Below the pieces are notes generated by a model that saw only the letters and a list, made by a program, of their open reading frames with translations, did no database searches and was not told where the DNA came from. Source: Thauera aminoaromatica S2 (GTDB lineage: Bacteria; Pseudomonadota; Gammaproteobacteria; Burkholderiales; Rhodocyclaceae). Taken from it: a stretch of DNA of 53,894 nt. Shown in pieces: positions 25,952-46,947 of the stretch. The stretch spans positions 1 to 53,894 of the forward strand of contig NZ_AMXD01000011.1 in assembly GCF_000310185.1 (NCBI RefSeq), read 5' to 3'. The stretch's first letter is position 1; the number at the start of each line of letters is the position of its first letter. A program made the translations under genes and the position numbers.

Positions 25952-26002
25952 CGCGGGGACTCCGTCGTTGGTGACGAAACCACGGTATTTCCCGGCGTTG
26001 CA

Positions 26003-27298: not shown

Positions 27299-27301
27299 CG
27301 G

Positions 27302-27592
27302 TCAGGCTCTCAGGGCCTCGATGACGGCGGCGGGGTTGCGCTCGATGACGTTCAGCAGCACCAGCGCGGGACCGTGCGGGGTGCGGTCGCCTCGCTCCCA
27401 ATGGCGAAGGGTCGCCGTCGAGAATCCGAAGCGCGCGGCGAACTGCTCTTGCGTCATGCCCACCTTGGCGCGCAGGGCTTTCACGTCCACCGGGCGCGGG
27501 CGGTGAATGCGGGTGCCCGGCGCGGGGTGTCCTTCGGCGTGTTCGATGGCCTCTTGCAGGCCACGCTTGATGCTCTCGAATGCGGTGCTCAT
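27302..27592 (-). CDS. XRE-family antitoxin-like regulator
   Basis: This 96-residue protein (MSTAFESIKRGLQEAIEHAEGH...) has the HTH VDVKALRAKVGMTQEQFAARFGFSTATLRHWERGDRTPHG. This is the usual arrangement for the antitoxin partner of a RelE/HigB-type toxin. Its ATG overlaps the toxin stop (ATGA). A frameshifted second copy lies at 29711-29991. Confidence 0.9.
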   Translation of the reverse strand: MSTAFESIKRGLQEAIEHAEGHPAPGTRIHRPRPVDVKALRAKVGMTQEQFAARFGFSTATLRHWERGDRTPHGPALVLLNVIERNPAAVIEALRA

Positions 27593-27930
27593 GTCTTTCG
27601 GTTCCTCCATGCCCTGACAAGTAGGTCGGTCAGGTCGGCAAGCTCGTTTCGTTCGGCCTTGGTCAGGTTGGCGCGGTCGCCCTTTGCGAAGAGCGTCAGC
27701 AGGTACAGCGGCATGTCCTCGTTGTGGAAGTAGTAGATGACGCGCACGCCTCCGCTCTTGCCTTGTCCACCGCGCCTCCATCGCAACTTGCGCACGCCTC
27801 CCGTGCCTTCCATCAGGTCGCCGTCTTTCGGGTGTTCTGCCAGATAGCGGATGATGTCCTGCCGCTCTTCCTCGCTCATCAGCTTCGCAGCGGTGCGGAT
27901 GTACTCCGGCAGTTCGGCAACGGTTTGCAT
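27589..27930 (-). CDS. RelE/HigB-type toxin
   Basis: The 113-residue protein (MQTVAELPEYIRTAAKLMSEEERQDIIRYLAEHP...GGVRKLRWRRGGQGKSGGVRVIYYF...LLTLFAKGDRANLTKAERNEL) matches the RelE/ParE-fold mRNA-interferase-like toxins that pair with a downstream XRE antitoxin. A TTG at 27948 would add six residues. The toxin gene precedes the antitoxin, as in higBA. It probably stabilises the element in the chromosome. Confidence 0.88.
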   Translation of the reverse strand: MQTVAELPEYIRTAAKLMSEEERQDIIRYLAEHPKDGDLMEGTGGVRKLRWRRGGQGKSGGVRVIYYFHNEDMPLYLLTLFAKGDRANLTKAERNELADLTDLLVRAWRNRKT

Positions 27931-27979
27931 GGTTGGAGTGTAATCCAATGGAACGGTTCAGCCTACCGTCTGTGATTGC

Positions 27980-29353: not shown

Positions 29354-29374
29354 GCTGGCAACTCCGGCTAGTTT

Positions 29375-29410
29375 GGCTACACAGCGGGTCCGTGTAGCCA
29401 CGGTGTAGCC
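29375..29410. repeat. GTGTAGCC repeats near the integrase (candidate arm sites)
   Basis: Inverted copy GGCTACAC at 29375-29382 and direct copies at 29392 and 29403 (11 bases apart). The last two share an 11-bp phase and nearly identical surroundings with the set at 18602-18639 near attL. Confidence 0.65.
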
Positions 29411-29539
29411 AGATTCTAGCAACATCCATCAACATGAATCAACCACGCTACTCTCTCATCTTCATCCAAAACAATGGCTTGCGTTCAGTTTTTAGCGCAT
29501 TCCCTGGGGGCTGGCGTTGATTAGGATGAACATAAAATG

Positions 29540-29588
29540 TGACTCTTAATCAATTGGTCCTAGGTTCGAGTCCTAGTGCCCCCACCAA
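29540..29588 (+). repeat. attR, 49-bp direct repeat of tRNA-Lys 3' end
   Basis: It is identical to 18497-18545 and lacks the 5' half of the tRNA, so it is not a functional tRNA. A terminator-like hairpin follows (29603-29624, then Ts). Confidence 0.95.
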
Positions 29589-29710
29589 CAAATTCAAGCA
29601 CTTGGGCCAGTTCGAGAGAACTGGCCTTTTTGCTTTTCGGACGTTTGGTTGCCGTTCGGCGGCCACCAGGCGAGCAATCAGGTCGCTGCGAAGCAAAAGG
29701 CCGTCCCGCT

Positions 29711-31851: not shown

Positions 31852-32444
31852 TCCTCGCCCGGCAAGCCCATAGGCGCGGCCCGAGGCCATCACCCGCCGG
31901 CCCTCGTCGATATCCTCGGCCGGCCAGCGCACCGAGCACGCGGGTCGGACCAGCCTCACGCTCACAGGCCAGGATGCCTGCGCAGACAAGGCCCGGCAGG
32001 TGGTCCTTTGCCTCTACGGCCAGCCCCAGGCCTGGGCAACAGACGCTGCCGCCCCGTTGAACACCCGTTTGGACTGGATCTGATAGATTGTTCGCATAGA
32101 AAATGTCGATGCGCGAAAATTGGGGTGTGAGGACCGGTAGACGCTACGCAGGAGGGTGCTGCGGATGCCCCCCTCCAGACTCGACGCAGTCGGATTGGCG
32201 CAGATCGGAGCGGGCCTTTCCCTTTGCCTCCTTACGCGCCCGCGCCCAACCCGGCCGCGTGCCTGAACCACGACTTCAAGACCACATCACGCTTGGAGCC
32301 GCCCATCCGCGATCACAACACGCCATTGCAGAAGTCGGAATCATCATGGAGCGCGTCACCGGCCTGCGAGAGGAAACTCGCTCCTGCTCCAAACATTCGG
32401 CCGCAGCCTACGCTGCACGGCAAAGATATTCGAGGGCCGGTTTA
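31852..32444 (+). other. 593-bp gap upstream of the FixJ-type regulator
   Basis: No convincing gene is found. A TTGAAC (about 32056) with TGATAG about 17 bases downstream is a possible promoter. The frame of the regulator is open through much of this stretch but reads as non-protein-like sequence. No copy of the TAAGACC motif is present. Confidence 0.4.
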
Positions 32445-33119
32445 ATGATCATGGAAGCAGAGAAACCGGACATGTCCGCAGCACCCACGATATTCGTCAT
32501 CGATGACGATGAGGACGTCCGTACCAGTCTGTCACGGCTGCTGCGCGCCGCCGGCTGGCAAGTCGAGACCTTCGCTTCGGCAGGCGACTTCCTCGAGCGC
32601 CCCGCCTGCGCCGGTACAGCTTGTGTATTGCTCGATGTCGACATGCCGGAAATGACAGGTCCGCGCTTGCACGAAACGATGCTCGCACGCGGCATCGACA
32701 TGCCGGTCATCTTCCTCACCGGAAAGGGAGACGTGCCCACGACCGTCCAGGCAATGAAGCGCGGCGCCGTCGATTTCCTGCTCAAGCCGGTGGAAAACGA
32801 TACGCTCTTTGCCGCCATCGAGATCGCCCTGCGACGTCACGACAGCGATCAGGCGCGCCGACGGGAACAACTCGGCATCGCCATGCGCCTGGATCGCCTC
32901 TCGGCCCGCGAGCGCGAAGTCATGGAACTGGTCGTTCTGGGCCGCCTCAACAAGCAGATTGCAGCGGAACTGGGCATCGCCGAAAAGACCGTCAAGATTC
33001 ACCGCGGGCGAGTCATGGAAAAAATGGAGGTCCAATCCGTGGCTGCACTGGTCCACCTGTTGGACCGCGCCGACGACAGAGCGCCAGCCGGTGGCGGCGA
33101 CCCGCCCCTCCAGCGCTAG
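32445..33119 (+). CDS. FixJ/LuxR-type response regulator
   Basis: The ATG at 32445 (GAGG about ten bases upstream; 32451 and 32472 are alternatives) gives about 224 residues. It has a receiver with acidic DDDED, Asp64 (VLLDVDMPEM), Thr in FLTGKGDVPTT and Lys in LLKPVENDT. It also has a C-terminal LuxR-type HTH (LSAREREVMELVVLGRLNKQIAAELGIAEKTVKIHRGRVMEKM). It should bind DNA when phosphorylated. The FixL-like kinase at 34574 is the natural partner, and the TAAGACC promoters are its likely targets. Confidence 0.92.
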   Translation: MIMEAEKPDMSAAPTIFVIDDDEDVRTSLSRLLRAAGWQVETFASAGDFLERPACAGTACVLLDVDMPEMTGPRLHETMLARGIDMPVIFLTGKGDVPTTVQAMKRGAVDFLLKPVENDTLFAAIEIALRRHDSDQARRREQLGIAMRLDRLSAREREVMELVVLGRLNKQIAAELGIAEKTVKIHRGRVMEKMEVQSVAALVHLLDRADDRAPAGGGDPPLQR

Positions 33120-33187: not shown

Positions 33188-33232
33188 TAAGACCAAGAGG
33201 CGATTACGGTCGGGCGGCGGCCCGCCTACCAT
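33188..33232 (+). promoter_or_regulatory. TAAGACCAAG promoter of mipA/ompV-like gene
   Basis: TAAGACCAAG at 33188-33197, CGAT at 33201-33204 and a -10-like TACCAT at 33227-33232. The A/C/T layout and the distances are the same as at 36481-36525 and 42384-42428. Confidence 0.7.
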
Positions 33233-33259
33233 CGGTTCTCCCTGACCTCCTGGAGAGAC

Positions 33260-34093
33260 ATGATGCGACATTCCGGCAAGCTGCTTGTTGGCCTGGCCGC
33301 GTTCGTGACGATGGTTACCGGCAACATCACCGCAGCACGGGCGCAAGGCTTTCTCGAACTCGAGCAAACGCCTGCCTTCATTGGCTTGGGCGCCGGCAGC
33401 GTCCCGGATTACAAGGGCTCGGACGATCGCAGCGGCGGCGTCGCCCCCTACGCCCGCTACACCTTCGCCGGCCAGCAGCGCTACGTGCAACTGTTCGCCA
33501 ACGAATTGAGCCTCAACCTGGTCGACAGCCAGAAATATCGCTTCGGGCCGGTGATCAACTACCACTTCGGCCGGGACAGCGACGTCGAGGACGACGTGGT
33601 CCGCCAGATGAGGGACATCGACGGCACCGTCGAACTCGGCGTCTTCGGCGACATCGCCTGGGTCGATGCCGCCAACCCGCGCAATCGCCTGATCGTCGGC
33701 GGCATGCTGCTGCAGGATGCCGGCGGCGAAAGCGACGGCCTGCGCGCAAGGCTCTCGGCCCGCTACTGGCGCCAGGTGCACCGCGCCGTGGACGTGCATG
33801 TCGGCGCCGGCTTCATGTACGGCAACCGCAAGCACAACGATCACTACTTCGGCATCAATGCGGACAACGTGGGCAGCGCGCCCCTCCCGGCCTACAAGGC
33901 AGACAGCGGCGTACACGAGGCCTACATAAACCTGGGAACAGCCCTTTACCTGAGCAAGGAATGGGTGCTCGGCGCCGGCCTGCGCTACGGTCGGATCACC
34001 GGCGATGCCGCCGACAGCCCCCTGGTCGACCAGCGCGGCAGCGAGAACCAGGTCATCGGCGGCATTGGTGTGGCCTACATCGGGTGGCGTTGA
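33260..34093 (+). CDS. MipA/OmpV-family outer-membrane protein
   Basis: The 277-residue protein has a signal peptide (residues about 6-28, ending ARAQG) and the MipA/OmpV opening PAFIGLGAGSVPDYKGSDDRSGGVAPYARYTF. Beta-strand patterns follow, with a C-terminal VIGGIGVAYIGWR. In E. coli MipA is a scaffold for murein machinery; others are porin-like or beta-barrel proteins of unknown role. The ATG is preceded by TGGAGAG. Its promoter carries the shared motif, so it belongs to the local regulon. Confidence 0.88.
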   Translation: MMRHSGKLLVGLAAFVTMVTGNITAARAQGFLELEQTPAFIGLGAGSVPDYKGSDDRSGGVAPYARYTFAGQQRYVQLFANELSLNLVDSQKYRFGPVINYHFGRDSDVEDDVVRQMRDIDGTVELGVFGDIAWVDAANPRNRLIVGGMLLQDAGGESDGLRARLSARYWRQVHRAVDVHVGAGFMYGNRKHNDHYFGINADNVGSAPLPAYKADSGVHEAYINLGTALYLSKEWVLGAGLRYGRITGDAADSPLVDQRGSENQVIGGIGVAYIGWR

Positions 34094-34132
34094 CTGCGGA
34101 GGATCGATCACCGGGCCGGCAGGAGCTCATGC

Positions 34133-34525
34133 ATGCGCGATGGTTCGAACGCCCTGAGCATTCACATCGTCGATGACGACGAGATGGTCAGATGCGGGCT
34201 GGCACGGCTGATGCGTTCCGCCGGCCACTCGTCGCTGAGCTTTGCCGACGGCGAGTCCCTGCTGACCCACCTGCATCAGGCCGTTCCCGACTGCGTCCTG
34301 ATCGACATCACGCCCACCGGCAGACTCGGCATCAAGCCGCAGGAAAGACTGCGGGCGCGACTTGCCGATATTCCCTTGATCGCCATCTCTGCCCGCGACG
34401 ACGAGGAGACCGTTCGCCTGGCCCGCCAGCTGGGCGCCCGCTTCTTCTTTCACAAGCCGGTAGATGGCCTGGCACTGCTCGATGCCATCAAGTGGGTGAC
34501 GGGAGACCCGGCGGCCCGCCGATAG
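34133..34525 (+). CDS. Stand-alone receiver-domain protein
   Basis: This 130-residue protein consists of a receiver domain only: acidic DDDE, a phospho-acceptor Asp in VLIDITPTG, a conserved ISARDD and Lys in FHKPVDG. The residues after the Asp (ITPTG) differ from the common MP-x-M pattern. No output domain is present, so it may be a phosphate sink or shuttle between the FixJ-type regulator and the kinase. Confidence 0.85.
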   Translation: MRDGSNALSIHIVDDDEMVRCGLARLMRSAGHSSLSFADGESLLTHLHQAVPDCVLIDITPTGRLGIKPQERLRARLADIPLIAISARDDEETVRLARQLGARFFFHKPVDGLALLDAIKWVTGDPAARR

Positions 34526-34573
34526 TCCGGAACAGGCTTGGTAGGCCACCCGCTTGGCGTTACATTCCGGGAC

Positions 34574-36424
34574 ATGCCGGGCTTGAACCTGATCGACGTA
34601 ATCTGGCCGATGATGGCCGCCACCAGCTTGACGCTGGCGGTCATCTTTTTCTTCATCTGGATTCACCTTCGGGCCCAGCGCGATTACCTGGCTTTCGCCC
34701 TGTTCGCCGTCTGCGTCTGGTTTTACACGTTCGGCGAGTGGTCGCTGATGCGGGCGACGACGCCCGAGGCCTACGGCGACACCCTGCGCTGGATGATGGT
34801 CGTGGTCCCGATCGGGGTCATCCTCCTGGCCGCGTTCATCCGCTGGCACCTGCGCGCAGGCCGCGACTGGCTGTTCTGGAGCGTCTGCGGCCTGCGGCTG
34901 CTCGGCATCCCGCTCAACTTCCTGTTCGGGGCCAATGTCGTCTATTCGGAGATCACCGAGCTCCAGCAACAGGCGACCATGTTCGGCGACAGCATCGCCA
35001 TGCCGGTCGGCGTCCCGGGGCCCTTCCACTGGCTGGTCAACAACCTCGCCGACATCCTGCTGGTCCTCTTTCTCGCCGACGCAACCCATTCCGCCTGGCG
35101 CCGCGGCGACGCTCTGACCCGGCGGCGCGCCCTTTTGGTCGGTGGCGGCACCATCCTGTTCTTCCTCATCGCCGCGGGCCATGCCACGCTGCTGCACGCC
35201 GGACTGGCATCCTCGCCATATCTGATCAGCATCAGCTTTCTCGGCATCGTCCTGGTCATGTCCTATCAGCTGGGCTTCGATGTCTTCCGCTCGGTGCACC
35301 TGGCCATCCAGCTGCGCGAGAGCGAACAGCGGATGGAGCTGGCCGTCCATGCCGCGCGCCTCGGGCTCTGGGAATGGGACATCGAGCGCGACGTCTTCTG
35401 GGCCAACGACACCGGCTATGCGATGTTTTCCTTTCTGCCCGGCGAGCGCGTGGACTTCGACAGGTTCAGCCAGCGCATCCATCCCGAGGAGAGAGCCGCA
35501 GTCGTTACCGCCGTCCACGATGCCCTCGCCAACCATCGCCGCTACGAGAAGGAATACCGCATCGTCCTGCCCTCCGGCGACACCCGCTGGATGCACGCCT
35601 GGGGGCAGGCCGAATACAGCGCCAGCGGCAAGCCGACCAAGCTGCTCGGCGTCGTCCTCGATGCCACCGAGCGCAAGCTGGCGGAGCAGCGCCAGGACGA
35701 GATCGAGAGACTGGCCAACCGCCAGCGCGACGAACTCGCGCACCTGTCGCGCGTCGCCATGCTGGGCGAGCTTTCCGGCGCTCTCGCCCATGAGCTGAAC
35801 CAGCCGCTGACCTCGATCCTCAGCAATGCCCAGGCGGCCCAGCTGTTCATCGCCCGCGGCGTGGTGAGCGCCGACGAGATCGGCCCCATCCTCGACGACA
35901 TCGTCAAGGCCGACCGCCGTGCCGGCGACATCATCCGGCGCCTGCGGCGGTTGCTAAAGAAGGACGACTCGACGCGGCAGTGGCTCGACCTCAACGAGGT
36001 GGTCAGCGAGGTCCTGCGGCTGACCAACAGCGACCGCGTTTCCCGCGGGATCACCATCAAGCTCGAGTTGTCGCCGGACCTGCCTCCTGTCTATGGCGAC
36101 GAGGTGCAATTGCAGCAGGTCCTCCTGAACCTGCTGAACAACGCCTGCGATGCCATCGAGGCCGTCGACGCGCTGCCGGCGCTGACCGTCCGCACCGTAT
36201 GCGAGGCCGGCAACGTCATCGTCTCCGTGGCCGACCGCGGCAGCGGCATCGGCGCCGAGGACATGGAGCGCATCTTCGAGCCCTTCGTCACCACCAAGGC
36301 CAAGGGCTTGGGCTTGGGCCTGTCGATCTGCCGGACCATCATCCAGGCTCACGGCGGCCGGCTCTGGGCTGAAAACCGGCAGGACGGCGGCGCGGTCTTC
36401 CACTTCGTGGTGCCTGTCGCGTGA
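34574..36424 (+). CDS. Membrane PAS sensor histidine kinase (FixL/DctS-like)
   Basis: The ATG at 34574 (the frame opens at 34538) gives 616 residues. About seven TM segments fill residues 10-232, followed by a PAS domain (about 250-370, LGLWEWDIERDVFWANDTGYAMF... ATERKLAEQ). The HisKA-type H-box has His406 (GALAHELNQPLTSILSNAQAA), and the ATPase has ADRGSGIG and GLGLGLSICRTII. The HELNQPLTSI form is typical of kinases paired with FixJ-type regulators. The 7TM-like N-terminus suggests sensing in or at the membrane. The ligand is unknown. Confidence 0.92.
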   Translation: MPGLNLIDVIWPMMAATSLTLAVIFFFIWIHLRAQRDYLAFALFAVCVWFYTFGEWSLMRATTPEAYGDTLRWMMVVVPIGVILLAAFIRWHLRAGRDWLFWSVCGLRLLGIPLNFLFGANVVYSEITELQQQATMFGDSIAMPVGVPGPFHWLVNNLADILLVLFLADATHSAWRRGDALTRRRALLVGGGTILFFLIAAGHATLLHAGLASSPYLISISFLGIVLVMSYQLGFDVFRSVHLAIQLRESEQRMELAVHAARLGLWEWDIERDVFWANDTGYAMFSFLPGERVDFDRFSQRIHPEERAAVVTAVHDALANHRRYEKEYRIVLPSGDTRWMHAWGQAEYSASGKPTKLLGVVLDATERKLAEQRQDEIERLANRQRDELAHLSRVAMLGELSGALAHELNQPLTSILSNAQAAQLFIARGVVSADEIGPILDDIVKADRRAGDIIRRLRRLLKKDDSTRQWLDLNEVVSEVLRLTNSDRVSRGITIKLELSPDLPPVYGDEVQLQQVLLNLLNNACDAIEAVDALPALTVRTVCEAGNVIVSVADRGSGIGAEDMERIFEPFVTTKAKGLGLGLSICRTIIQAHGGRLWAENRQDGGAVFHFVVPVA

Positions 36425-36480
36425 ACCCTGCCAATCGCCGCCCGGGCTGCTGGCGGACGGATCGCCGGCTCGTCCGGCGG

Positions 36481-36525
36481 TAAGACCAAGGTCTGATTTC
36501 TCGCCCCAGCCCCGGCGCATAACCT
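36481..36525 (+). promoter_or_regulatory. TAAGACCAAG promoter of the sulfatase gene
   Basis: TAAGACCAAG at 36481-36490, TGAT at 36494-36497 and a -10-like TAACCT at 36520-36525, with the same spacing as the other two sites. Confidence 0.72.
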
Positions 36526-36608
36526 TCTCCTCCATGCCGGGTGGAGCGCGTGTGCGCTCTCCGGCGCATCGGTCCACCCCGGACCGTCTTCGACGGAAGG
36601 AGAAAACA

Positions 36609-38345
36609 ATGACCATTCCCCGCAACACCCCCAACCCGTCCCCGGGCAGTCGCTGGCGGAAACTCGCCGCCTGCGCCGGGATGCTGATGGCAGCCGGCCT
36701 CGGCTTGTTGCATGGCGCCCCCCAGGCCAGTGCTGCCGAGCCGGCCAAGAAACCCAATATCCTGCTGATCGTTGCCGACGACATGGGCTATTCCGATGTC
36801 GGCGCCTTCGGCGGCGAGATCGAGACCCCGAACATCGACGCGCTGGCCCAGCGCGGCCTGAGCGCGACCAATTTCTACGTCGCCCCGACCTGCTCGCCGA
36901 CCCGCTCGATGCTGCTCACCGGCACCGACAACCACGTCGCCGGCTTTGGCGTCATGTCCGAGTACACGGGGCCGCAGCAGAAGGGCAAGCCCGGCTACGA
37001 AGGCCATCTGAACCAGCGCGTGACCAGCATCGCCACCCTGTTGCGCGATTCCGGCTACCACACCTACATGGCCGGCAAATGGCACCTCGGCGAGGAGAAG
37101 GGACAGTGGCCGGCCGACCAGGGCTTCGAGCGCGACTTCACCCTGATGCAGGGTGGCGGCAGCCACTGGTCGGATATGGGTTATCCCAACCCCCAGCATC
37201 CGAACCTGACCTTCACGCGCAACGGCAAGCTGCTCGACAAGCTGCCCGACGACCACTTCTCGACGGCGGCCTTCAGCGATTTCATCACGCAGTCGATCGA
37301 CGAGAACAAGGCCGACGGCAAGCCCTTCTTCGCCTATCTCTCCTACCAGGCGGTGCATAGCCCCTTCGCCCTGCCGGACGACTGGATCGACAAGTACAAG
37401 GGACGCTACGACCAGGGCTACGATGCACTGCGCGCCGAGCGCCTGGCGCGGATGAAGGCGATGGGACTGGTCGGCGCCGACGTCAGCCTGGCACCGCGCA
37501 TGCCCAACGTGCCCGCGTGGGACAGCCTGACGCCCGAGCAGAAGAAGATTTCCGCCCGCAAGATGGAAGTCTATGCGGCGATGGTGGCCAACATGGACCA
37601 CCACATCGGCCGCGTCCTCGGCCACCTGAAGGCCAACGGCCAGCTCGACAACACGCTGGTGCTGTTCTTCTCCGACAACGGCGCCGAACCGGTCGAACTG
37701 CTCGAGCTCGCGGCCTCGGTCGATCCGGCGATGAAGGTCTGGCTGGAGAAGAACTGGGACACCAGGCCGGAAAACTGCGGCCGCAAGATGTCCGTCTGTG
37801 ACTACGGCGCCGCCTGGGCCCAGGTCGGCTCGACCCCCTTCAACTACTTCAAGCACTACACCGCCGAGGGCGGCATCCGCTCGCCGCTGATCGCCGCCGG
37901 TCCCGGCGTCGTCTCCGACGGCCAGACCACCCGGGCCGTCCTGCACGTGACCGATGTCGTACCGACACTCCTCGAACTTGCCGGCGTCAGCCACCCGTCG
38001 CAGCGCGGAGGAAGCGATCAGGCACCGCTGACCGGCAAGTCGATGCAGCCTGTCCTCGTCGGCAAGGCGCAGGACATCCGCAGCGCCGACGAATGGATCG
38101 GCTGGGAGCTGTTCGGCAACCGCGCCCTGCGCCAGGGCGACTGGAAGGCCCTGTCCCTGCTGAAGGCAGCCGGCGGCACCGGCGAATGGCAGCTGTACAA
38201 CCTGAAGGACGACCCGACGGAGTCACGCGACCTGGCGTCCAGCCAGCCGGCCAAGCTCGCGGAGCTGACCCGGCTGTGGGACCTCTATGCCAGCCAGAAC
38301 GGCGTCATTCTCACCGGTGACGGTCCGTTCAAGGGCAGGAAATAA
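36609..38345 (+). CDS. Secreted sulfatase (arylsulfatase type, FGly)
   Basis: The 578-residue protein starts MTIPRNTPNP, with AAGGAG upstream. A signal peptide (residues about 20-43, ending AQASA-like ASAAEP) targets it to the periplasm. Catalytic motifs: metal Asp57/Asp58 (VADDMGYSDVG), CSPTR with Cys95 as the formylglycine precursor, AGKWHLG, and FFSDNGAEP. It hydrolyses sulfate esters; the substrate is unknown. A formylglycine-generating enzyme is not in the window. It is followed by a beta-barrel gene in the same operon. Confidence 0.93.
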   Translation: MTIPRNTPNPSPGSRWRKLAACAGMLMAAGLGLLHGAPQASAAEPAKKPNILLIVADDMGYSDVGAFGGEIETPNIDALAQRGLSATNFYVAPTCSPTRSMLLTGTDNHVAGFGVMSEYTGPQQKGKPGYEGHLNQRVTSIATLLRDSGYHTYMAGKWHLGEEKGQWPADQGFERDFTLMQGGGSHWSDMGYPNPQHPNLTFTRNGKLLDKLPDDHFSTAAFSDFITQSIDENKADGKPFFAYLSYQAVHSPFALPDDWIDKYKGRYDQGYDALRAERLARMKAMGLVGADVSLAPRMPNVPAWDSLTPEQKKISARKMEVYAAMVANMDHHIGRVLGHLKANGQLDNTLVLFFSDNGAEPVELLELAASVDPAMKVWLEKNWDTRPENCGRKMSVCDYGAAWAQVGSTPFNYFKHYTAEGGIRSPLIAAGPGVVSDGQTTRAVLHVTDVVPTLLELAGVSHPSQRGGSDQAPLTGKSMQPVLVGKAQDIRSADEWIGWELFGNRALRQGDWKALSLLKAAGGTGEWQLYNLKDDPTESRDLASSQPAKLAELTRLWDLYASQNGVILTGDGPFKGRK

Positions 38346-38387
38346 GCGCCGGATCAGTCGGTCGATGATGAAACCAGGAGCAACACG

Positions 38388-39173
38388 ATGAGGAAGATCG
38401 CTTACCGACTGCCGCTGACCCTGGCCGGTCTGCTCGCGGGCCTCGGCCCGCTGGGCGCGGCCCAGGCCGCAGATGAATGGGACGTCGCCGTCACCCCCTA
38501 TCTCTGGGCCACCGGCATGAAGGGCGACACGCAAGCCGGCAGGCTGCCGAAGACGAGCGTCGACATGAAGTTCTCGGACATCATGGACACCCTGGACTTC
38601 GGCCTGATGGGCCAGCTGGAGGCGCGCAAGAACCGCTGGGGCGTCTTTGTCGACGCCATCTACATGAAGCTGTCCGATAGCGCCGAAGCCTCGCCGGCGG
38701 TTCTCGGCGGCTCCCCGGACCTGCACGCCAAGGCGAGGATCAAGCAAAGCACGCTGGCCGCCGCGCTGACCTACCGGGCGCTCGAGGGCCCGTCACCGGT
38801 CGACCTGTTCGGCGGGCTCCGCTACACCAGGCTCGACGTCGATGTCGATGTCGACGCCAGCGTCTTCGGCGGCGCGGTCGGCGTGCAGGTGAAGCGCGAC
38901 GCCACCAAGGACTGGGTCGACCCCTACATCGGCGTACGTGCCCAGCACAGCCTGAACGACAAATGGACGCTGGTCGGCTATGGAGATGTCGGCGGCTTCG
39001 GTGTCGGCGCCGACTTCACCTGGCAGGCCTCGCTGGGCGCCAACTACGATCTGTCCAAAACCACCTCGGCCAGCTTCGGTTACCGCTATTTCAGCGTCGA
39101 CTACGACGACGACGGCTTTCTCTACGACATGGAGAACGAAGGCCTGTACCTGGGCGTGAGCTTCCGCTTCTGA
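38388..39173 (+). CDS. Outer-membrane beta-barrel protein
   Basis: The 261-residue protein has a signal peptide (MRKIAYRLPLTLAGLLAGLGPLGAAQAA...) and a mature start DEWDVAVTPYLWATGMKGD. Strands alternate through the protein, and it ends GLYLGVSFRF with a terminal Phe, typical of outer-membrane insertion. It resembles the family of OMP/porin-like proteins with PYLWATG openings. It lies 42 bases after the sulfatase stop, with AGGAG before the ATG. Confidence 0.85.
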   Translation: MRKIAYRLPLTLAGLLAGLGPLGAAQAADEWDVAVTPYLWATGMKGDTQAGRLPKTSVDMKFSDIMDTLDFGLMGQLEARKNRWGVFVDAIYMKLSDSAEASPAVLGGSPDLHAKARIKQSTLAAALTYRALEGPSPVDLFGGLRYTRLDVDVDVDASVFGGAVGVQVKRDATKDWVDPYIGVRAQHSLNDKWTLVGYGDVGGFGVGADFTWQASLGANYDLSKTTSASFGYRYFSVDYDDDGFLYDMENEGLYLGVSFRF

Positions 39174-39334
39174 CGCAGCCCCCCGGGACGGTTCAGGCCG
39201 TCCCGGCTTCCACACCTGAATCGAGCCGCGCCAAGCACGAACCTTGCGCCGATCGGTATCACCCCTTCCCTTCCTGATGCAGCAGAACGCCGTAGCGCGC
39301 GGCATGCGGGCAGCGATTGCCCGCGGCGAGAGAC

Positions 39335-41593
39335 TCATCGCTCCCGCAAGGTCTCGCACAAAGCCTTGGCTTGCCGGTCCCCCGGGAAGCGCTCGAGCAA
39401 TTCCTCGGCATAGGCGCGCGCCCTGACCATGTCCTTCTGGTCGCGACTGATCGTCGCCAGGGCGAAAAGGACATCGCGATTGCCCGGATGCTGCGATTTC
39501 GCCTGACGCAGGATGCGCAGGGCGCCGGCCCCGTCGCCACTGCCCTGCAGGGCCAGGGCATAGACATAGCTGTAGTGGGCATTGCCGCTTTCCGCTTCGG
39601 CAGCCTGGCGCAGCCACTGCAGGGCTTCGCCGCGGCGTTGCTGGCGGATCAGATTGAGGCCGAGGGTATGGCGCAGGTCGGCATCGAAGGTGATCCTGTC
39701 GATGCCCTCGCGCAGCAGGTGCTCGCCCTCGCCTTCGCGCTGCTGCAGGCGGTAAAGGTCGGCCAGGTTGACATAGGCCGGGACGAAACGAGCATCCAGC
39801 CGCAGTGCCGTCCGGTAGGCCTGCTCCGCCTGCTCGCCGTCGCCCATCGACAGGGCGAGCAGGCCCTGGCTGACATGACTCTCGGGCAGATCGGCGTTGA
39901 CCTGAAGCGAAGCTTCGTACTCGGCCACGCCGCGCAGCAGTTCCTCCCGCTGGGCCGCCGGCAGTCGCTCGCGCAGCAGCGGGGCAAGAACCCGGACAGC
40001 CTCGAGGCGTACCGTCCGCTCGCTGTCGCGCAGGCTGCTCCAGCCCTGCTCGAAGCGGGTGCGCGCATCCGCCACCTCGAGGAAGCGCAACGAGGCGGCG
40101 CGCACCAGCGGCTGCCGATCCGCCAGCAAGGCCTGCAGCCTGGACGGCGGCGGCACCGTCCCCAGGCCGGCCAGGCGGCTGGCGGCGCTGCCGCGGACAA
40201 TCGCCGGCTGCTGCGGATCGCTCGCCACCGCCAGCAAGCGGGCAGCCCCGTCGGCCGCACCGGTGGCGGCCGCATGGAAGGCTTCGGCAAAATGCGGCCC
40301 GCGCATCCGGCTCTCGGGATACCACCGGGAAAGGGCACGGGCCGCCCATTCGTGGCCCTGCTGCGCATGGCATCCGGCACAGGCGTTCGGCGTGCCCAGC
40401 CTGACGGAGAGATCGGGACGCGGCACACGGATGCTGTGGTCGGCGCGCCAGTCATGGACCATGTACGCCCGCTGCGGCATATGGCAGCTGGTGCAACTGG
40501 CCCCCGGGCTGCCCGCCGGGTGATGGTGGTGCGCCGGGGTGTCGTAGCGTGCCGCCGGATGGCAGCTGGCGCACAGGGCATTGCCCTCGGCCCGCAGCTT
40601 CAGGCTGTGCGGCTCGTGGCAGTTGGTGCAGGCGACGCCGGCCGCATGCATCCGGCTCTGCGTGTAGGAGGCGTACTCGAAGACCTCGTCCTTGATCTGG
40701 CCGTCGGCAAAGTACAGCCGCTCCTCGAGCAGGGCCAGGCGATGGCTGTTGCCCAGCGGGCGGCCACCGCCGTCATCGGACCAGATCGGCCCGCGCCGCG
40801 AATGGCAGCGGGCACAGGCCTCGACCTGCGCTGCAGCGCTGGCCGGCGTGCTTGGCCGCGGCTTGCCGCTGACCGGATCGAAGGCCCAGGTGGTGGTGGC
40901 CGCGGCAGCCAGCGAAACCGTCAGTCCCTTGTCGCCCGCCGGACGCCTTGCCGCCGGCAGTGCGGCCCAGTCGGCATGCTTGCCGCCGGCACCGTGACAG
41001 GCCTCGCAGGCGACGTTGATCTCGCTCCAGGTCGTCCGGTAACGATCGGCCGCCAGGTCGTAGTTCTTCTGCAGATTGGTCGAGTGACACTCGGCACACT
41101 GATGGTTCCAGGTCTGGCTGCGCGCCGTCCAGTGCTGCGGATGGCGGTGATCCATCGGCTCATTGGGGTAAAGATGGAACCAGCGCTGGCCGCCGACGGC
41201 CGCCGGCCGGCTATCCCAGGCGATACCCAGCGCCTGGACATGGCCATTGGGCAACTCGATCAGGTACTGCTGCAACGGCGTCCAGCCGAAGGTGTATTTG
41301 ATCCGGTAGTCCTGCAACTTGCCATCCGGGCCATCGGTGCGCACGAAATAGCTGCCGTCCTTGCGATAGAAGCGCGAGGTCACGCCATGCGCGGTGAAGG
41401 TGGCGTCGTTGAAGTCGCCCAGGACCTTGTCGGTTGCCGCCACGGCCATCGCCAACTCGTGATGCGAGCCGCGCCAGGCCTCGGCCTCCGCCTGATGGCA
41501 GGCGACGCAGCGGGTACTGCCGACATACCCGGAGCCAGCCACCGACCAGGGGGCCAACAGCAGGGCAAGAATGAAGACGGCGAGTTGCCTCAT
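39335..41593 (-). CDS. Octahaem cytochrome c with HEAT/TPR repeats
   Basis: The 752-residue protein has a signal peptide (residues about 1-20, ending SVAGSG) and eight CxxCH motifs (CVACH, CAECH, CEACH, CARCH, CTNCH, CASCH, CTSCH, CAGCH) in the first 60 percent. The rest carries HEAT-like and TPR repeats (ADLPESHVSQGLLALSMGDGEQAEQAYRTAL, FVPAYVNLADLYRL). Such cytochromes occur in periplasmic redox complexes; the TPR part suggests a partner-binding platform. It is the second gene after the DUF3313 gene (77-bp gap) and probably shares its regulated promoter. Confidence 0.9.
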   Translation of the reverse strand: MRQLAVFILALLLAPWSVAGSGYVGSTRCVACHQAEAEAWRGSHHELAMAVAATDKVLGDFNDATFTAHGVTSRFYRKDGSYFVRTDGPDGKLQDYRIKYTFGWTPLQQYLIELPNGHVQALGIAWDSRPAAVGGQRWFHLYPNEPMDHRHPQHWTARSQTWNHQCAECHSTNLQKNYDLAADRYRTTWSEINVACEACHGAGGKHADWAALPAARRPAGDKGLTVSLAAAATTTWAFDPVSGKPRPSTPASAAAQVEACARCHSRRGPIWSDDGGGRPLGNSHRLALLEERLYFADGQIKDEVFEYASYTQSRMHAAGVACTNCHEPHSLKLRAEGNALCASCHPAARYDTPAHHHHPAGSPGASCTSCHMPQRAYMVHDWRADHSIRVPRPDLSVRLGTPNACAGCHAQQGHEWAARALSRWYPESRMRGPHFAEAFHAAATGAADGAARLLAVASDPQQPAIVRGSAASRLAGLGTVPPPSRLQALLADRQPLVRAASLRFLEVADARTRFEQGWSSLRDSERTVRLEAVRVLAPLLRERLPAAQREELLRGVAEYEASLQVNADLPESHVSQGLLALSMGDGEQAEQAYRTALRLDARFVPAYVNLADLYRLQQREGEGEHLLREGIDRITFDADLRHTLGLNLIRQQRRGEALQWLRQAAEAESGNAHYSYVYALALQGSGDGAGALRILRQAKSQHPGNRDVLFALATISRDQKDMVRARAYAEELLERFPGDRQAKALCETLRER

Positions 41594-41670
41594 GTCAAGT
41601 CCGCTCCTGCGTCGTCACCACCCGGTCGCATGCCATGCCGGCAGCGACCGGGTCGCCCACGTCGCCCCCT

Positions 41671-42342
41671 CTAGTTGGCAGCCTTGGCGGCCTGCATGAA
41701 GGCGGCGGCATCCTTGGCCCAGGCGTCGATGGCCGGTTGCATCTGCTCGAGGGTCAGCGTGTCCTTGACGGTCTTCAGCTTGGCGCCTTCACCTTCACGC
41801 ATGCCAGCGGCAACGAGCTGGCCGGTCGCGGTGTCGGTCACCTCGTATTCGAGAGCCAGAACAGCGCGTTTGGTGGTCTGGCCCATGGTCAGCACGAAGG
41901 CGACGGGCAGCAGCTGGTAAGGCTTCAGACCCTCGTCCTTGGCCGCTGCTGCGGTGACCGCCGGACGCATTCGCAGGACATTGGGCCCAGGCTTGTCGAC
42001 TACGCGCACCACCGTCTGCAATTCGCGGCGAAAGGCCTCGTCGAGGGCGGCAGCGATCTGGTTCAGCGTGGCCATGCCCAGCTGTTCCGTCGGCTGCGGC
42101 GCCGGATGGAAGACCGTCTTGTCCACCATCACGGCGTCGTACTGAGCGAACGAGATCCCCGGGGCGACCCAGCGCCTGGCGCGTTCGCCCGACGGCGAAC
42201 GGACCTCCTCCATACTGGCGTAGGTGGTGTCCTTGAGGAAACCGGACGGGGCGCCCAGATCTTTCTTGTCGTCGGCCAGCGCTTGATTGGCAAGGACACT
42301 GGCCGCCAGGGCCATGCCCGTCAAATAGGCAGGGAAACGCAT
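41671..42342 (-). CDS. DUF3313-family exported protein
   Basis: The ATG at 42342 (AGGAG upstream) gives 223 residues with a signal peptide (YLTGMALAASVLANQALA). The mature part GFLKDTTYASMEEVRSPSGERARRWVAPGISFAQYDAVMVDKTVFHPAP resembles the DUF3313 family, often lipoproteins, although no lipobox is visible here. No function is assigned. It heads the cytochrome operon and has the shared TAAGACC promoter. Confidence 0.82.
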   Translation of the reverse strand: MRFPAYLTGMALAASVLANQALADDKKDLGAPSGFLKDTTYASMEEVRSPSGERARRWVAPGISFAQYDAVMVDKTVFHPAPQPTEQLGMATLNQIAAALDEAFRRELQTVVRVVDKPGPNVLRMRPAVTAAAAKDEGLKPYQLLPVAFVLTMGQTTKRAVLALEYEVTDTATGQLVAAGMREGEGAKLKTVKDTLTLEQMQPAIDAWAKDAAAFMQAAKAAN

Positions 42343-42383
42343 CGCATTGCTCCTGAAGGCACATGAAGGGGGGAGGTGTCTTG

Positions 42384-42428
42384 ATCGTAAGCTGCCGACC
42401 GTTCGCCGACTATCGGGCTTTGGTCTTA
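42384..42428 (-). promoter_or_regulatory. TAAGACCAAA promoter of the DUF3313/cytochrome operon
   Basis: On the minus strand TAAGACCAAA (42428-42419) is followed by CGAT (42415-42412) and a -10-like TACGAT (42389-42384), with the same spacing as at 33188 and 36481. Confidence 0.72.
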
Positions 42429-42555
42429 CAGCCAGGCTGAAGATCGCCTCGCGCGCCCCCTCGGGCCGATCACCCTCGACGTGGTGAAAGCCCCTCATGC
42501 ATCCGCCTTGAGATTCCAGGGCAGAAGGGCTGCGCCGTTGGCAGGCCTGCTTCGA

Positions 42556-43335
42556 TCAGGACGACACCACCCCGATGCACGGCGGCAGCTGATCCTCCCC
42601 CGGCCAGCGCGACCAGTCGGGGTCGGGCAGCGCGTTGAAGACCTGGCGCAGGCTGGCGCCCCACTCCTTGTGGATCATGTCGAAATAAGGGTTGTCCCAA
42701 TCCACGCTGACGTGGCGGGCGACGCGCAGTTCGTCGCGGCGGTAGATCAGCAGGTCGAGCGGCAAGCCCACCGACAGGTTGGAGCGGATGGTCGAGTCCA
42801 TCGAGATCAGCGCGCACTTGGCGGCCTCGTCGAGCGAGGTCTTGCTGGTGACGATGCGGTCGATGATCGGCTTGCCGTATTTCGACTCGCCGATCTGGAA
42901 GTACGGCGTGTCGATCGAGGCCTCGATGAAGTTGCCGGCCGAGTAGATGTTGAACAGGCGCGGCGACTCGTCGCCGATCTGCCCGGCGAGGATGAAGCTG
43001 GCGTTGAACTCCACGCCGAACTGCTTGAGCGCCTCGGCGTCCTGGCGATGCACGCCGCGGATGGTCTCGCCGACCAGGCGGGCGCACTCGAACAGGGTCG
43101 GCGCGTTCCACAGGCTGTCGCGGTCCTGCACCGCGGCGTGCTCGCGCAGCAGGCTGATCACCGCCTGGGTGATGGCGAGGTTGCCGGCGCTCATCAGCAC
43201 CAGCACGCGGTCGCCGGCACGCTCGAACACGGTCATCTTGCGGAAGGTGTTGATGTGGTCCACGCCCGCGTTGGTGCGCGAGTCGGACAGGCAGACCAGC
43301 CCCTCGTCGAGGCACATGGCGACGCAGTAGGTCAT
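42556..43335 (-). CDS. Anbu proteasome-type peptidase
   Basis: The 259-residue protein starts MTYCVAMCLDEGLVCLSDSRTNAGVDHINTFRKM. Thr2 becomes the N-terminal nucleophile after Met removal, and the proteasome Asp17 and Lys32/33 equivalents (SDSR, FRKM) are present. The Anbu family (ancestral beta-subunit) forms proteasome/HslV-like rings. Its neighbours, an alpha-E protein and an ATP-grasp enzyme, match the conserved Anbu cluster, in which the peptidase is thought to act on the cluster's products or targets. Confidence 0.93.
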   Translation of the reverse strand: MTYCVAMCLDEGLVCLSDSRTNAGVDHINTFRKMTVFERAGDRVLVLMSAGNLAITQAVISLLREHAAVQDRDSLWNAPTLFECARLVGETIRGVHRQDAEALKQFGVEFNASFILAGQIGDESPRLFNIYSAGNFIEASIDTPYFQIGESKYGKPIIDRIVTSKTSLDEAAKCALISMDSTIRSNLSVGLPLDLLIYRRDELRVARHVSVDWDNPYFDMIHKEWGASLRQVFNALPDPDWSRWPGEDQLPPCIGVVSS

Positions 43336-43399
43336 GGGTTCGATCCCGTCGGTTCATTGGCCCGGCCCCGGGTCCGGGCCGGAAGACGCCGCGTACCGG

Positions 43400-44347
43400 T
43401 CATGCCGCGACCGGAACCAGAAAGTTCTCGCCGATGCTGTCGCCGAGGCGGTTGATGCGCACCAGGAAGCGCTCCAGCCAGGGATGCAGGCCGGCATCGA
43501 AGATGTCGTCCATGCGCCCGTAGTGCAGCGTCGCGTGCAGCTCGCCGGCCTGGCGTGCGGCCTCGGCCGAGTGGATGCTGGCGATCTCGCCGAGGATGCC
43601 GTTGATCTCGTCCAGGCAGGCGTGCAGCGAGCGCGGCATGTCGGCGTTGAGGATCAGCAGCTCGGCCACCTTGTAGGGTGTGATCACGTCGCGATACACG
43701 TGGCGGTAGGTCTCGAAGGCCGACACCGAGCGCAGCAGCGCCCCCCACTGGTAGAAGTCGGTCGAGCTGGTGAGTCCCTCGGCCTTGGGCAGCAGGCTGT
43801 GGTACTTCACGTCGAGCAGGCGCGCGGTGTTGTCGGCGCGCTCGAGGAAGGTGCCCAGGCGCACGAACTTGAAGGCCTCGTCGTGCAGCATGGTGCCGAA
43901 GGTCACCCCGCGCAGCAGGTGGGAGCGGAACTTCACCCACTCGAAGAACTCGCCGAGGTCGGTGGCGCGCAGCTTCTGCGGCGTCATCTCGCGGATCTCG
44001 AGCCAGGTCGCGTTGGTGGTCTCCCACATCTCGGCGGTCAGCGTGCCGCGCACCGCGTGCGCATTCTCGCGCGCGGCGCGCAGGCAGTTCCACACGCTCG
44101 AGGGGTTGTCGCGGTCGAGCACGACGAACTCGATCACGTCGCAGGCGGAGAGCGGCCTGCCGGTGCGGGCGAAGGCCTCCGACAGTTCGCTGATGTCGAG
44201 GATAGCGGACCAGCTCTCGGTGTCGCCGCCGTTGGCCCCGGGCAGCAGCGACATGCGGTAGGACACGTCGAGCATGCGCACGGTGTTCTCGGCGCGCTCG
44301 GTGTAGCGCGCCATCCAGTACAGGTGGTCTGCGGTTCGGCTCAGCAT
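43400..44347 (-). CDS. Alpha-E domain protein
   Basis: This 315-residue helical protein (MLSRTADHLYWMARYTERAENTVRMLDVSYRMSLLP...) is of the alpha-E (DUF403) family. It is always found with a circularly permuted ATP-grasp enzyme and a transglutaminase-like protein. It is an accessory factor of unknown biochemical role. It lies between the ATP-grasp gene (37 bases upstream) and Anbu (64 bases downstream). Confidence 0.92.
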   Translation of the reverse strand: MLSRTADHLYWMARYTERAENTVRMLDVSYRMSLLPGANGGDTESWSAILDISELSEAFARTGRPLSACDVIEFVVLDRDNPSSVWNCLRAARENAHAVRGTLTAEMWETTNATWLEIREMTPQKLRATDLGEFFEWVKFRSHLLRGVTFGTMLHDEAFKFVRLGTFLERADNTARLLDVKYHSLLPKAEGLTSSTDFYQWGALLRSVSAFETYRHVYRDVITPYKVAELLILNADMPRSLHACLDEINGILGEIASIHSAEAARQAGELHATLHYGRMDDIFDAGLHPWLERFLVRINRLGDSIGENFLVPVAA

Positions 44348-44384
44348 GGGGGGTCTCCTTGGCAATTGCGCGGCGGCAGGCGGC

Positions 44385-45815
44385 TCAGCCCACCACCCAG
44401 GTGTCCTTGGTGCCCCCGCCCTGCGAGGAGTTGACCACCAGCGAGCCAGCCTTGAGCGCGACGCGGGTGAGGCCGCCCGGCACCATGCGGATCTCGCGTC
44501 CGCCCGAGAGCACGAAGGGACGCAGGTCGATGTGGCGCGGCGCGATGCCGGCGTCGACGAAGGTCGGGCAGGTGGACAAGGACAAGGTCGGCTGGGCGAT
44601 GTACTTCTCCGGCGCGGCGAGGATGCGCTGGCGGAACTCCTCGATCTCGGCCTTGGTGGCCGCCGGCCCCACCAGCATGCCGTAGCCGCCGGCGCCATGG
44701 ACCTCCTTGACCACCAGCTCGGGCAGGTGGGCGAGCGTGTAGGCGAGGTCGTCGGGTTCGCGCAGCATCCAGGTCGGGACGTTGTTGAGGATCGGCTCCT
44801 CGCCGAGGTAGAAGCGCACCATCTCGGGCACGTAGGGGTAGATCGACTTGTCGTCCGCCACCCCCGTGCCGACCGCGTTGGCCAGCGTCACCCGGCCGGC
44901 GCGGTAGGCCGACATCAGGCCCGGCACACCGAGCATCGAGTCGGCGCGGAAGACCTCGGGGTCGAGGAAGTCGTCGTCGAGGCGGCGGTAGATCACATCC
45001 ACCCGCCGCGGCCCCTGGGTGGTGCGCATGAACACGGTGTCGTCCTCGACGAAGAGGTCCTGGCCCTCGACGAGCTCGATGCCCATCTGCTGGGCGAGGA
45101 AGCTGTGCTCGAAGTAGGCGCTGTTGAAGGCGCCCGGGGTGAGCAGCACCGCGGTGGGGTCGAGCACGCCGGCCGGCGCCACCGCGCGCAGGGTCTCGAG
45201 CAGCAGGTCGGGGTAGTGCTCGACCGGCTGCACGTCGTAGCGCGAGAACAGGTCGGGGAAGAGCCGCATCATCATCTTGCGGTTCTCCAGCAGGTAGCTC
45301 ACCCCCGAGGGCACGCGCAGGTTGTCCTCCAGCACGTAGTAGTCGCCCTTGCCGTCGGCACCCGCGGCACGCACCAGGTCGATGCCGGCGATCATCGCGT
45401 ACAGCCCGCCGGGCACGTGCACACCCTTCATCTCGGGGCGGAACTGGGCGTTGTCCAGCACCTGGTCGGCGGGGATGCGTCCGGCGCGCAGGATCTCCTG
45501 GCCGTGGTAGATGTCGGCGAGGAAGGCGTTGAGCGCGCGCACGCGCTGGCGCAGGCCGGCCTCCAGCGTGCGCCACTCGTCGCCGGGGATGATGCGCGGC
45601 AGCAGGTCGAAGGGGATCAGGCGCTCCTTGCCGCCGTCGGCGCCATAGACGTTGAAGGTGATGCCGACGCGGTGGAAGGCCAGGTCGGCCTCCTTGCGCT
45701 TGCGCGCGATCAGCTCGCGCGGGGTGTGCCCGAGCCACTCGCTGTAGGGCTGGTAGTGCGTCCGGATCGTGCCGTCGGCGGCGTGCATCTCATCGAAAGG
45801 CTTGGCGGCGTTCAT
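44385..45815 (-). CDS. Circularly permuted ATP-grasp enzyme
   Basis: The 476-residue protein has the family pieces [95 protein letters not shown] and [62 protein letters not shown]. These belong to the DUF404/DUF407 circularly permuted ATP-grasp type. Amidoligases of this kind are predicted to make peptide bonds or peptide modifications (Iyer and colleagues' analysis, from memory). Confidence 0.92.
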
Positions 45816-45962
45816 GGCGTGCTCTGCGCGGATGGTTTATCGACTCCCTCGCAGGGCCTACAGCAGAAAGCGTGCCAAGCCCATGAAACGCGCAAAGCCG
45901 CGCCGACAACGGGGTCGGGCACGTCGACGTCCGCGGGCACCGCGCTGGTGCGCACCATGGTG

Positions 45963-45995
45963 GCCGCCGACGCATCAATCTGGTGCGTCGGCGGC
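45963..45995. other. Stem-loop with 12-bp arms between the two operons
   Basis: GCCGCCGACGCA (45963-45974) and TGCGTCGGCGGC (45984-45995) are perfect inverted repeats around a nine-base loop. The stop codon of the transglutaminase lies in the loop. No T run follows, so it may be a transcript-end structure or a Rho-dependent pause. Confidence 0.6.
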
Positions 45996-46937
45996 ACGCG
46001 CCGGGCGCCCGCCCCGCCGTGGGGGCGGGCCCTCCTCCACCGGCATCACCGTCACCGCGACCTCGACGCCGTGCCCGCCCCCGCCGAGAATGACGCCGCG
46101 CAGCGGACACACGTCGCCGTAGTCCCGCCCCCAGGCCAGCGTGATGTGACCGCTGCCAGGCTGCAGGTCGTTGGTCGGATCGATGTCGATCCAGCCCGCG
46201 CCCGGGCACCACAGCGCCACCCAGGCGTGCGAGGCGTCGGCGCCGATCAGGCGCGGCTGGCCCGGCGGCGGCTCGGTGAGCAGGTAGCCGGAGACGTAGC
46301 GCGCAGCCAGGCCGAGCGCGCGCAGACAGGCGATCATCAGGTGGGAGAAGTCCTGGCACACCCCACGGCGCGCCGCGAAGACCTCCGCCACCGGGGTGGC
46401 GACGCTGGTCGCCGCGGGATCGAAGCGAAAATCGGCGTGGATGCGCGCCGACAGCGCGAGCAAGGCGTCGAGCACCGGCCGCCCCGGGGTGAAGCTCGCC
46501 AGCGCATAGTCGGCGTACTGCGCCGCCTCGTCGCCCAGCGCCACGAAGGGCGAAGCGAAGCGGTACTGCCCGGCGTCGCGCGCGTCGGCGCGCAGCGGCG
46601 CGTGGCCGGAGAGGCCGTCGCGCAGGTGGTCGCGCGCGGTCTCCCAGGGCGGACTCGCCGCCGGCTCGGGCCAGGCCGGCGGGTCGACGCGGATGCGGCT
46701 GCGTGCGCGCACGACGAGTTCCGTGTGCGGCGCGTGCAGCGCGAACGCGGTCACCGGGTTGCCGAAGAAGTCGCTGCGCTCGCTACGCCGGGCCGGCGCC
46801 GGCGCGATCTCCAGGTGGTGCGCGAGGGTGCGCTGGCCGGCGCATTCGCGCGGGCGCAGGTGAGCCACCTGCTGCGACAGCGCCACCGCACTGTCGTAGC
46901 GGTAGGTGGTGTCGTGGAGGATCTCGTAGAGCGCCAT
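45975..46937 (-). CDS. Transglutaminase-like cysteine protease family protein
   Basis: The 320-residue protein starts MALYEILHDTTYRYDSAVALSQQVAHLRPRE, the typical N-terminal beta domain. The transglutaminase-core triad Cys194 (RRGVCQDFSHLM), His237 (ASHAWVAL) and Asp253 (IDIDPTND) is visible. It follows the ATP-grasp/alpha-E fusion gene by ten bases. Such proteins are predicted amidases or peptidases linked to ATP-grasp ligases. Confidence 0.92.
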   Translation of the reverse strand: MALYEILHDTTYRYDSAVALSQQVAHLRPRECAGQRTLAHHLEIAPAPARRSERSDFFGNPVTAFALHAPHTELVVRARSRIRVDPPAWPEPAASPPWETARDHLRDGLSGHAPLRADARDAGQYRFASPFVALGDEAAQYADYALASFTPGRPVLDALLALSARIHADFRFDPAATSVATPVAEVFAARRGVCQDFSHLMIACLRALGLAARYVSGYLLTEPPPGQPRLIGADASHAWVALWCPGAGWIDIDPTNDLQPGSGHITLAWGRDYGDVCPLRGVILGGGGHGVEVAVTVMPVEEGPPPRRGGRPARAADAPD

Positions 46938-46947
46938 CGCCGCCGCC

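Follow-up and report, generated by a model that had tools for sequence, protein, structure and literature searches.

A 16-bp inverted repeat at a fixed promoter distance: the very probable operator of a FixJ/NarL-type envelope regulon in Thauera aminoaromatica S2

Here we present the analysis of a gene cluster located in a 53,894-nucleotide stretch of Thauera aminoaromatica S2 DNA, which was analysed at its full length and is called the window throughout. The cluster encodes a FixJ/NarL-type response regulator, a MipA/OmpV-family protein, a receiver-only protein, a membrane PAS histidine kinase, a sulfatase, an outer-membrane beta-barrel, a DUF3313 protein and a multihaem cytochrome, with three similar promoter regions placed among them (Table 1). 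The regulator start at 32472 is our choice within the open reading frame 32103-33119. The mipA, receiver and kinase genes follow site 1 in the same direction, with gaps of about 40-50 bp, and since the site precedes this codirectional group, the kinase probably belongs to its own regulon: site 1 probably drives mipA-receiver-kinase, which would put the kinase under the control of the system it serves. For all three gene groups the operon structure is proposed on the basis of intergenic distance and orientation. The first 231 residues of the kinase contain six hydrophobic stretches, and the kinase of a related genome (G171) gives weak 7TM matches below the cut-off; on these grounds a 7TM sensor is plausible.

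Table 1. Features of the cluster, in window coordinates
Feature	Position	Strand	Evidence
FixJ/NarL-type response regulator (REC + GerE HTH), proposed activator	32472..33119	+	Pfam Response_reg and GerE above cut-off in ORF 32103-33119
Operator site 1	33188..33204	+	17-bp motif, exact match; dyad is the first 16 bp; right half degenerate
-10-like TACCAT, promoter 1	33227..33232	+	positions 40-45 from motif start
MipA/OmpV-family outer-membrane protein gene	33260..34093	+	Pfam MipA 1.7e-47
Receiver-only response regulator, gene 2 after site 1	34133..34525	+	130-aa translation; NCBIfam matches span receiver part of response regulators
Membrane PAS histidine kinase, gene 3 after site 1	34574..36424	+	PAS_3, HisKA, HATPase_c (ORF from 34538)
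Operator site 2	36481..36497	+	exact match; best dyad (AGACCAAGGTCT); 25.7 bits with other-genome matrix
-10-like TAACCT, promoter 2	36520..36525	+	positions 40-45 from motif start
Sulfatase, first gene after site 2	36609..38345	+	Pfam Sulfatase 3.8e-63 (ORF from 36534)
Outer-membrane beta-barrel protein, gene 2 after site 2	38388..39173	+	OMP_b-brl 3.3e-10
Multihaem cytochrome with TPR repeats, gene 2 after site 3	39335..41593	-	Cytochrome_C7, Cytochrome_C554 and TPR matches; called octahaem in the initial annotation
DUF3313 protein, first gene after site 3	41674..42342	-	DUF3313 1.7e-43 in ORF 41671-42498
-10-like TACGAT, promoter 3	42384..42389	-	positions 40-45 from motif start
Operator site 3	42412..42428	-	exact match; 24.4 bits, second in window

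The regulator carries the active-site receiver residues D11, D12, D55, T83 and K105, and the two domains that define the FixJ/NarL type, the receiver and the GerE/LuxR helix-turn-helix, both lie above the Pfam cut-off. Its recognition helix reads EKTVKIHRGRVM. The best NCBIfam match is FixJ at 201 bits, below the equivalog cut-off of 255 bits, and the kinase reaches 227.8 of the 850 bits set for FixL, so that neither protein belongs to FixJ or FixL sensu stricto. The likeness to FixL/FixJ lies in the regulator architecture and in this best match, whereas the helix is of an EKTVK type, against SIKTVE in many comparison proteins. The closest solved relative is 1yio (phmmer E 3.9e-52, residues 1-201 on 1-201), listed as 'response regulatory protein', which we take to be StyR.

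A pattern search of the window for TAAGACCAAR-N3-YGAT gave starts at 33188+, 36481+ and 42428- (TAAGACCAAGAGGCGAT, TAAGACCAAGGTCTGAT and TAAGACCAAAGCCCGAT, respectively), the places and strands at which the initial annotation had put three similar promoters. GAT at positions 15-17 and TACCAT, TAACCT or TACGAT at 40-45 were likewise found as it had described them. Its formula was off by one in the spacer, given as N2 where the real gap is N3; the literal N2-YGAT form finds in the window only matches with 3 mismatches, 4 against 2.88 expected, which is the chance level. The motif had been called absent elsewhere in the window, and indeed the sole additional N3 match has 3 mismatches. When the motif was combined with a TA at a gap of 20-24, the window held 3 matches and 100 shuffles held 0. 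In the 4.28-Mb genome of the organism, TAAGACCAAR-N4-GAT has 26 matches at up to two mismatches (3 exact, 0 with one and 23 with two), and the reversed control pattern has 24, none of them exact; therefore the three cluster sites alone exceed chance. This is the genome scan that had been proposed earlier: nothing except the three sites matches at 0 or 1 mismatch, and the motif is not common at random. Each single site is a short motif, which is what could be said for a chance likeness of the three promoters. The shuffles, the uniqueness in the genome and the recurrence at fixed spacing in five other genomes, described below, make such a coincidence practically negligible.

The nature of the motif became apparent from related clusters. 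DUF3313 was searched for in 300 genomes of the order, with matches in six including the organism's own, and one of them (G136) holds within 6 kb relatives of the DUF3313 protein (54%), the barrel (54%), the kinase (36% over its C-terminal half) and the FixJ-type regulator (50.5%). Upstream of its DUF3313 gene stands TTAGACCAAAGACCAAT, with CACCAT at 40-45, and the DUF3313 gene of G171 is preceded by TAGGACCAAAGTCTAAT with TAAGGT as -10. From these two upstream sites it follows that the two parts of the motif, which the initial annotation had treated as separate, are halves of one inverted repeat: the related clusters resolve it into a 16-bp dyad, TTRGAC-CAAG-GTCYAA, of two 6-bp half-sites and a 4-bp gap. 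The dyad is nearly complete at site 2 and fair at site 3; at site 1 the left half is good and the right half (GAGGCGA) poor. With a matrix built from 15 sites of other genomes only, site 2 ranks first in the window (25.7 bits) and site 3 second (24.4 bits), followed by two scores of 14.2 in a tRNA-Lys gene and its duplicate, with site 1 fifth at 11.4 bits. Its rank below two tRNA-derived matches and its right half would suit a reading in which only sites 2 and 3 are true operators, site 1 is decayed or fortuitous and mipA is not a member. We consider this unlikely, as site 1 is exact in its ten leftmost bases, its terminal GAT and its spacing to the -10, and it directly follows the regulator gene, a position that the operator also takes in G171 and G206.

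The dyad was then used in strict form (TNRGACCAARGNCYRAT). Among 300 genomes of the order it occurs at 35 places in 25 genomes, against 15 for control columns by our count. Five genomes hold 15 of the 35 sites: the organism's own (G000) 2, G136 3, G171 5, G206 2 and G291 3, the own count excluding site 1, which does not fit the strict form; the remaining 20 are near the control level. Strict sites share a contig with a FixJ orthologue in G171 (5 sites), G206 (2), G291 (2) and G136 (2). In a separate search of the order with the regulator protein, the best matches after the window were those of G171 (57%), G206 (52%) and G291 (52%), with G136 lower (50%); no strict site was found in G286, G188, G046 and G154, the regulator matches of which ranked above that of G136. 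Over 369 genomes of the class the strict dyad has 18 places in 14 genomes, against 10 in control columns by our count. Here a genome of another order (G674) combines the best regulator match outside the own genome (54%) with the most strict sites (3). These three lie on two contigs other than the FixJ contig, on which a receiver gene is preceded by a site with one mismatch. At least two strict sites were found in 7 of the 665 distinct genomes searched both ways: the six regulon genomes (G000, G136, G171, G206, G291 and G674) and G621, with two sites 270 kb apart.

The distance to the promoter is just as regular. We compared 50 distinct strict sites with enough downstream sequence, 17 of them in the six regulon genomes (18 exist; the site on contig C13 of G291 is not included). 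Of the 17, 12 have a TANNNT that begins at position 40 and one has it at 41, with no other start within 18-55; when the two window sites are removed, 10 of 15 have it at 40. Among the 33 strict sites outside the six genomes it begins at 40 in 5 (G107, G317, G363, G692 and G470) and in at most 2 at any other position. The five regulon-genome sites lacking TANNNT at 40 comprise two with CANNNT there (G136, G291), one with TATGCT at 41 (G136) and two in G674 with no forward-strand equivalent; for one of these G674 sites the reverse strand reads TATAGT at 40. A curated list of 18 promoters, with window site 1 and two near-matches (upstream of receiver genes in G291 and G674) included and the two G674 sites lacking forward-strand TANNNT left out, gives 15 of 18. 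The comparison of promoters of orthologous clusters, another check proposed earlier, thus shows the dyad and its spacing recurring together with FixJ in five other genomes.

If TANNNT is taken to end at -7, the dyad centre falls at about -43.5, a value derived from the -10. Bases 17-22 from the motif start are TTACGG, TTTCTC and TAGTCG in the window, a poor -35. An activator site overlapping the -35, a fixed distance to the -10 and a poor -35 are the features of class II activation, all found here at the level of sequence, and the predicted dyad centre fits this mode of activation without a good -35. The rigid distance from motif to -10 could also be expected if the motif were a promoter element recognised by an alternative sigma factor. 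That would be very unlikely: the motif is a 16-bp inverted repeat, its link to FixJ would be left unexplained, and its GACC core stands some 33 bp before the -10, beyond the reach of the -35 contact of a sigma factor.

The recognition helix was compared in FixJ-like proteins, 30 of the 32 matches of the order having loci, and then in 36 proteins including those of the class. The signature EKT[VI]K[VI]HR.RVM occurs in 7 of the 36, from G000, G171, G206, G291, G136, G674 and G675. At least two strict sites are present in 6 of these 7 genomes and in 1 (G621) of the other 658 searched. In the exception, G675 (85% complete, 350 contigs), a signature FixJ stands beside a kinase and no strict site was found even at one mismatch. 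The signature was defined after the first five proteins, and therefore the fair test is provided by the later two, of which G674 fits and G675 does not. The hypergeometric value of 4e-13 for the match of helix and operator is to be read with this post hoc signature in mind, and it covers only proteins within the E-value limits. When the 36 proteins are placed in a tree, the seven with the signature group more closely than shuffled labels do (1 of 500 as low), and a single clade of the seven appears in 0% of 200 bootstrap trees.

Two known systems are close in kind. For StyR/TodT-like regulators of styrene and toluene catabolism, excerpts of one paper give the operator consensus ATAAACN4GTTTAT and the StyR contact residues K175, V176 and H179 (PMC5874301), and those of another a high-affinity StyR site at about -40 (PMC2442086). 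Compared with these excerpts, our sites share the 16-bp dyad of 6-N4-6 geometry near -40 (TTRGAC-N4-GTCYAA over the 18 aligned promoters, window site 1 being poor in the right half), with AC...GT in the identical place. The half-site is TTRGAC instead of ATAAAC, the window regulator has K175, I176 and G179 at the contact positions, and the targets here are envelope genes instead of styrene or toluene catabolism. The ACTU motif of CrbR, a LuxR-family regulator like ours, spans -52 to -36 of the acs promoter as an imperfect 17-bp inverted repeat and is required for activation (PMC5715377). Our operator resembles it in position and partly in sequence; one of the ACTU sites, TACTACCAAAGTCTAAT, which is predicted only (PMC5715377), has C and T at positions 3 and 4 where the window operator has R and G. 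CrbR acts on acs/actP (PMC5715377), whereas envelope genes follow the three window sites, and CrbS has, in the portion of the literature consulted, an SLC5 symporter domain, a Pfam domain that the window kinase lacks. The operator has the geometry of StyR/TodT and CrbR sites and the sequence of neither; it marks a regulon with its own operator inside a known kind of control.

The likeness to the CrbR repeat is one reason to ask if another regulator, for instance a second FixJ/StyR/CrbR-like protein encoded elsewhere, binds the sites. The own genome has 81 loose regulator candidates, and G363, G692 and G470 have a perfect dyad with TANNNT at 40 and no FixJ match at E 1e-50, although in G470 a receiver-type match (38%) lies beside the site. 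We nevertheless regard this as quite improbable, since strict sites share a contig with a FixJ protein of matching helix in G171, G206, G291 and G136, while no site was found in the loci of the 25 other FixJ-like proteins of the order, each taken with about 1.5 kb to either side, and, the six aside, no genome encoding one of them reaches two strict sites. The local FixJ/NarL-type regulator is the preferred candidate: since its distant relatives have the same site at an equal promoter distance, the site is very probably the regulon switch. We put at roughly 0.85 the probability that the three sites are operators of the regulator at 32472-33119 and that it switches a small envelope regulon. The initial proposal of a local two-component regulon gains support here, as five other genomes combine this operator and spacing with a FixJ-type regulator that has the same recognition helix.

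The genes placed next to the operator elsewhere are of a similar sort. A receiver-only gene is preceded by it in all five other regulon genomes, by a strict site in G171, G206 and G136 (contig C39) and by a near-match in G291 and G674; judging by gene order, the receiver-only protein is a recurrent part of the predicted regulon. DUF3313 genes are preceded by the operator in G136 (54% identical protein) and G171, and gene pairs with an outer-membrane barrel carry it in the same two genomes, the window barrel being 54% identical to that of the G136 cluster. Among the genes beside the G171 sites are those for Ysc84 and a barrel, for DUF3313, and for a radical-SAM/SPASM protein with a sulfatase next in line; the strand that encodes DUF3313 also carries, farther downstream, glycine-zipper and patatin-Omp85 genes. 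From its position as a neighbour and from general knowledge, we infer that the radical-SAM protein matures the adjoining sulfatase. In G291, LssY_C proteins come after a small lipoprotein-like gene adjoining the site, and the gene that the second site of G136 faces has a weak, sub-threshold glycine-zipper match. By predicted family, the common theme of the operator-linked genes is the outer membrane and periplasm.

In the mechanism that we propose, a signal reaches the membrane PAS kinase (34574-36424), which would phosphorylate the regulator at Asp55. A regulator dimer would then bind the 16-bp dyad centred at about -43.5, for which the sequence and its distance to the -10 are in hand, and would recruit sigma-70 RNA polymerase, by class II activation, to promoters with a TANNNT -10 and no recognisable -35. 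In this way mipA-receiver-kinase, sulfatase-barrel and DUF3313-multihaem cytochrome would be turned on, and the kinase would be autoregulated via site 1. Induction would probably also raise the receiver, which may compete for kinase phosphate and give negative feedback; we propose this step because the operator also precedes a receiver-only gene in other clusters. To judge by gene families, the output may be a remodelled outer membrane and periplasm. It is a more speculative, rather doubtful thought that an envelope regulon spanning orders of the class comprises, under one operator, a 7TM-PAS kinase, an activator of FixJ type and a receiver-only protein that acts in feedback, and that in this species it came to control the sulfatase and the multihaem cytochrome, so that sulfate-ester cleavage is coupled with periplasmic electron transfer. 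A specific operator of rigid geometry can now be assigned, as a prediction, to a set of uncharacterised FixJ-type regulators, and the correspondence of regulator helix and operator is testable by exchange of residues with StyR. DUF3313, MipA, the multihaem-TPR cytochrome, the barrel and the sulfatase come under one proposed switch, which makes a shared role testable as well.

Closer relatives share parts of the cluster. Sulfatase homologues were found in 14 of 28 genus relatives, and 12 sulfatase loci from 10 genus genomes held no FixJ, DUF3313 or barrel relatives of the cluster and no full motif. In 9 of these 12 loci (L148, L149, L151 and L153-L158) and in a second copy in the own genome (contig C136, L066), relatives of the window sulfatase and multihaem cytochrome adjoin each other, with no FixJ relative or operator beside the pairs; the pairing of sulfatase and multihaem cytochrome is conserved. 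The exact motif occurs once each in 4 other genomes among 60 relatives, and in three of the four the following 120 bases showed nothing notable. In one genus relative (L030, G028:C8:274080) an exact TAAGACCAAAACGCGAT stands about 50 bp before an ATG, the frame of which resembles a response regulator (MQIGVLEEDRA...). No dyad was recognised by eye upstream of the DUF3313 homologues of G134 and G174. On plasmids, DUF3313 has 18 records, all below 60% identity, and the best 80 of 137 kinase relatives in genome contigs reach at most 38% identity.

In open-licence PMC we found no paper joining FixJ, MipA, sulfatase and response regulator, none linking DUF3313 with response regulator and regulon or with sulfatase, and none with three or more of FixJ, patatin, LssY, sulfatase, DUF1254 and DUF3300. 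The operator itself did not appear among the matches listed there, and it could be published. The literature on EmbRS and Thauera flocculation, in the parts consulted, was a dead end.

Several other observations were made along the way. The perfect dyads of G363, G692 and G470 (TTGGACCAAAGTCCAAT, with TANNNT at 40) lie at L288 7772-, L289 1953+ and L290 8025-, with a DUF1254/DUF1214 gene downstream in L288; the receiver-type match of G470 belongs to L290. At 838-1060 of L255 (G180), two tandem dyads precede an outer-membrane barrel gene, 48% identical to the window barrel, the second with CACAGT at 40. In the window, a 108-bp direct repeat (92%) at 18497-18604 and 29540-29647 takes in the 3' part of tRNA-Lys together with the next 60 bp. 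These repeats bracket about 11 kb (18497-29647) with a phage-type integrase at 27980-29425 on the minus strand; the bracketed DNA is probably an integrated element, and it stops short of the regulon. At 42556-47012 of the window, adjoining genes encode proteasome-like peptidase, Alpha-E, circularly permuted ATP-grasp and transglutaminase proteins.
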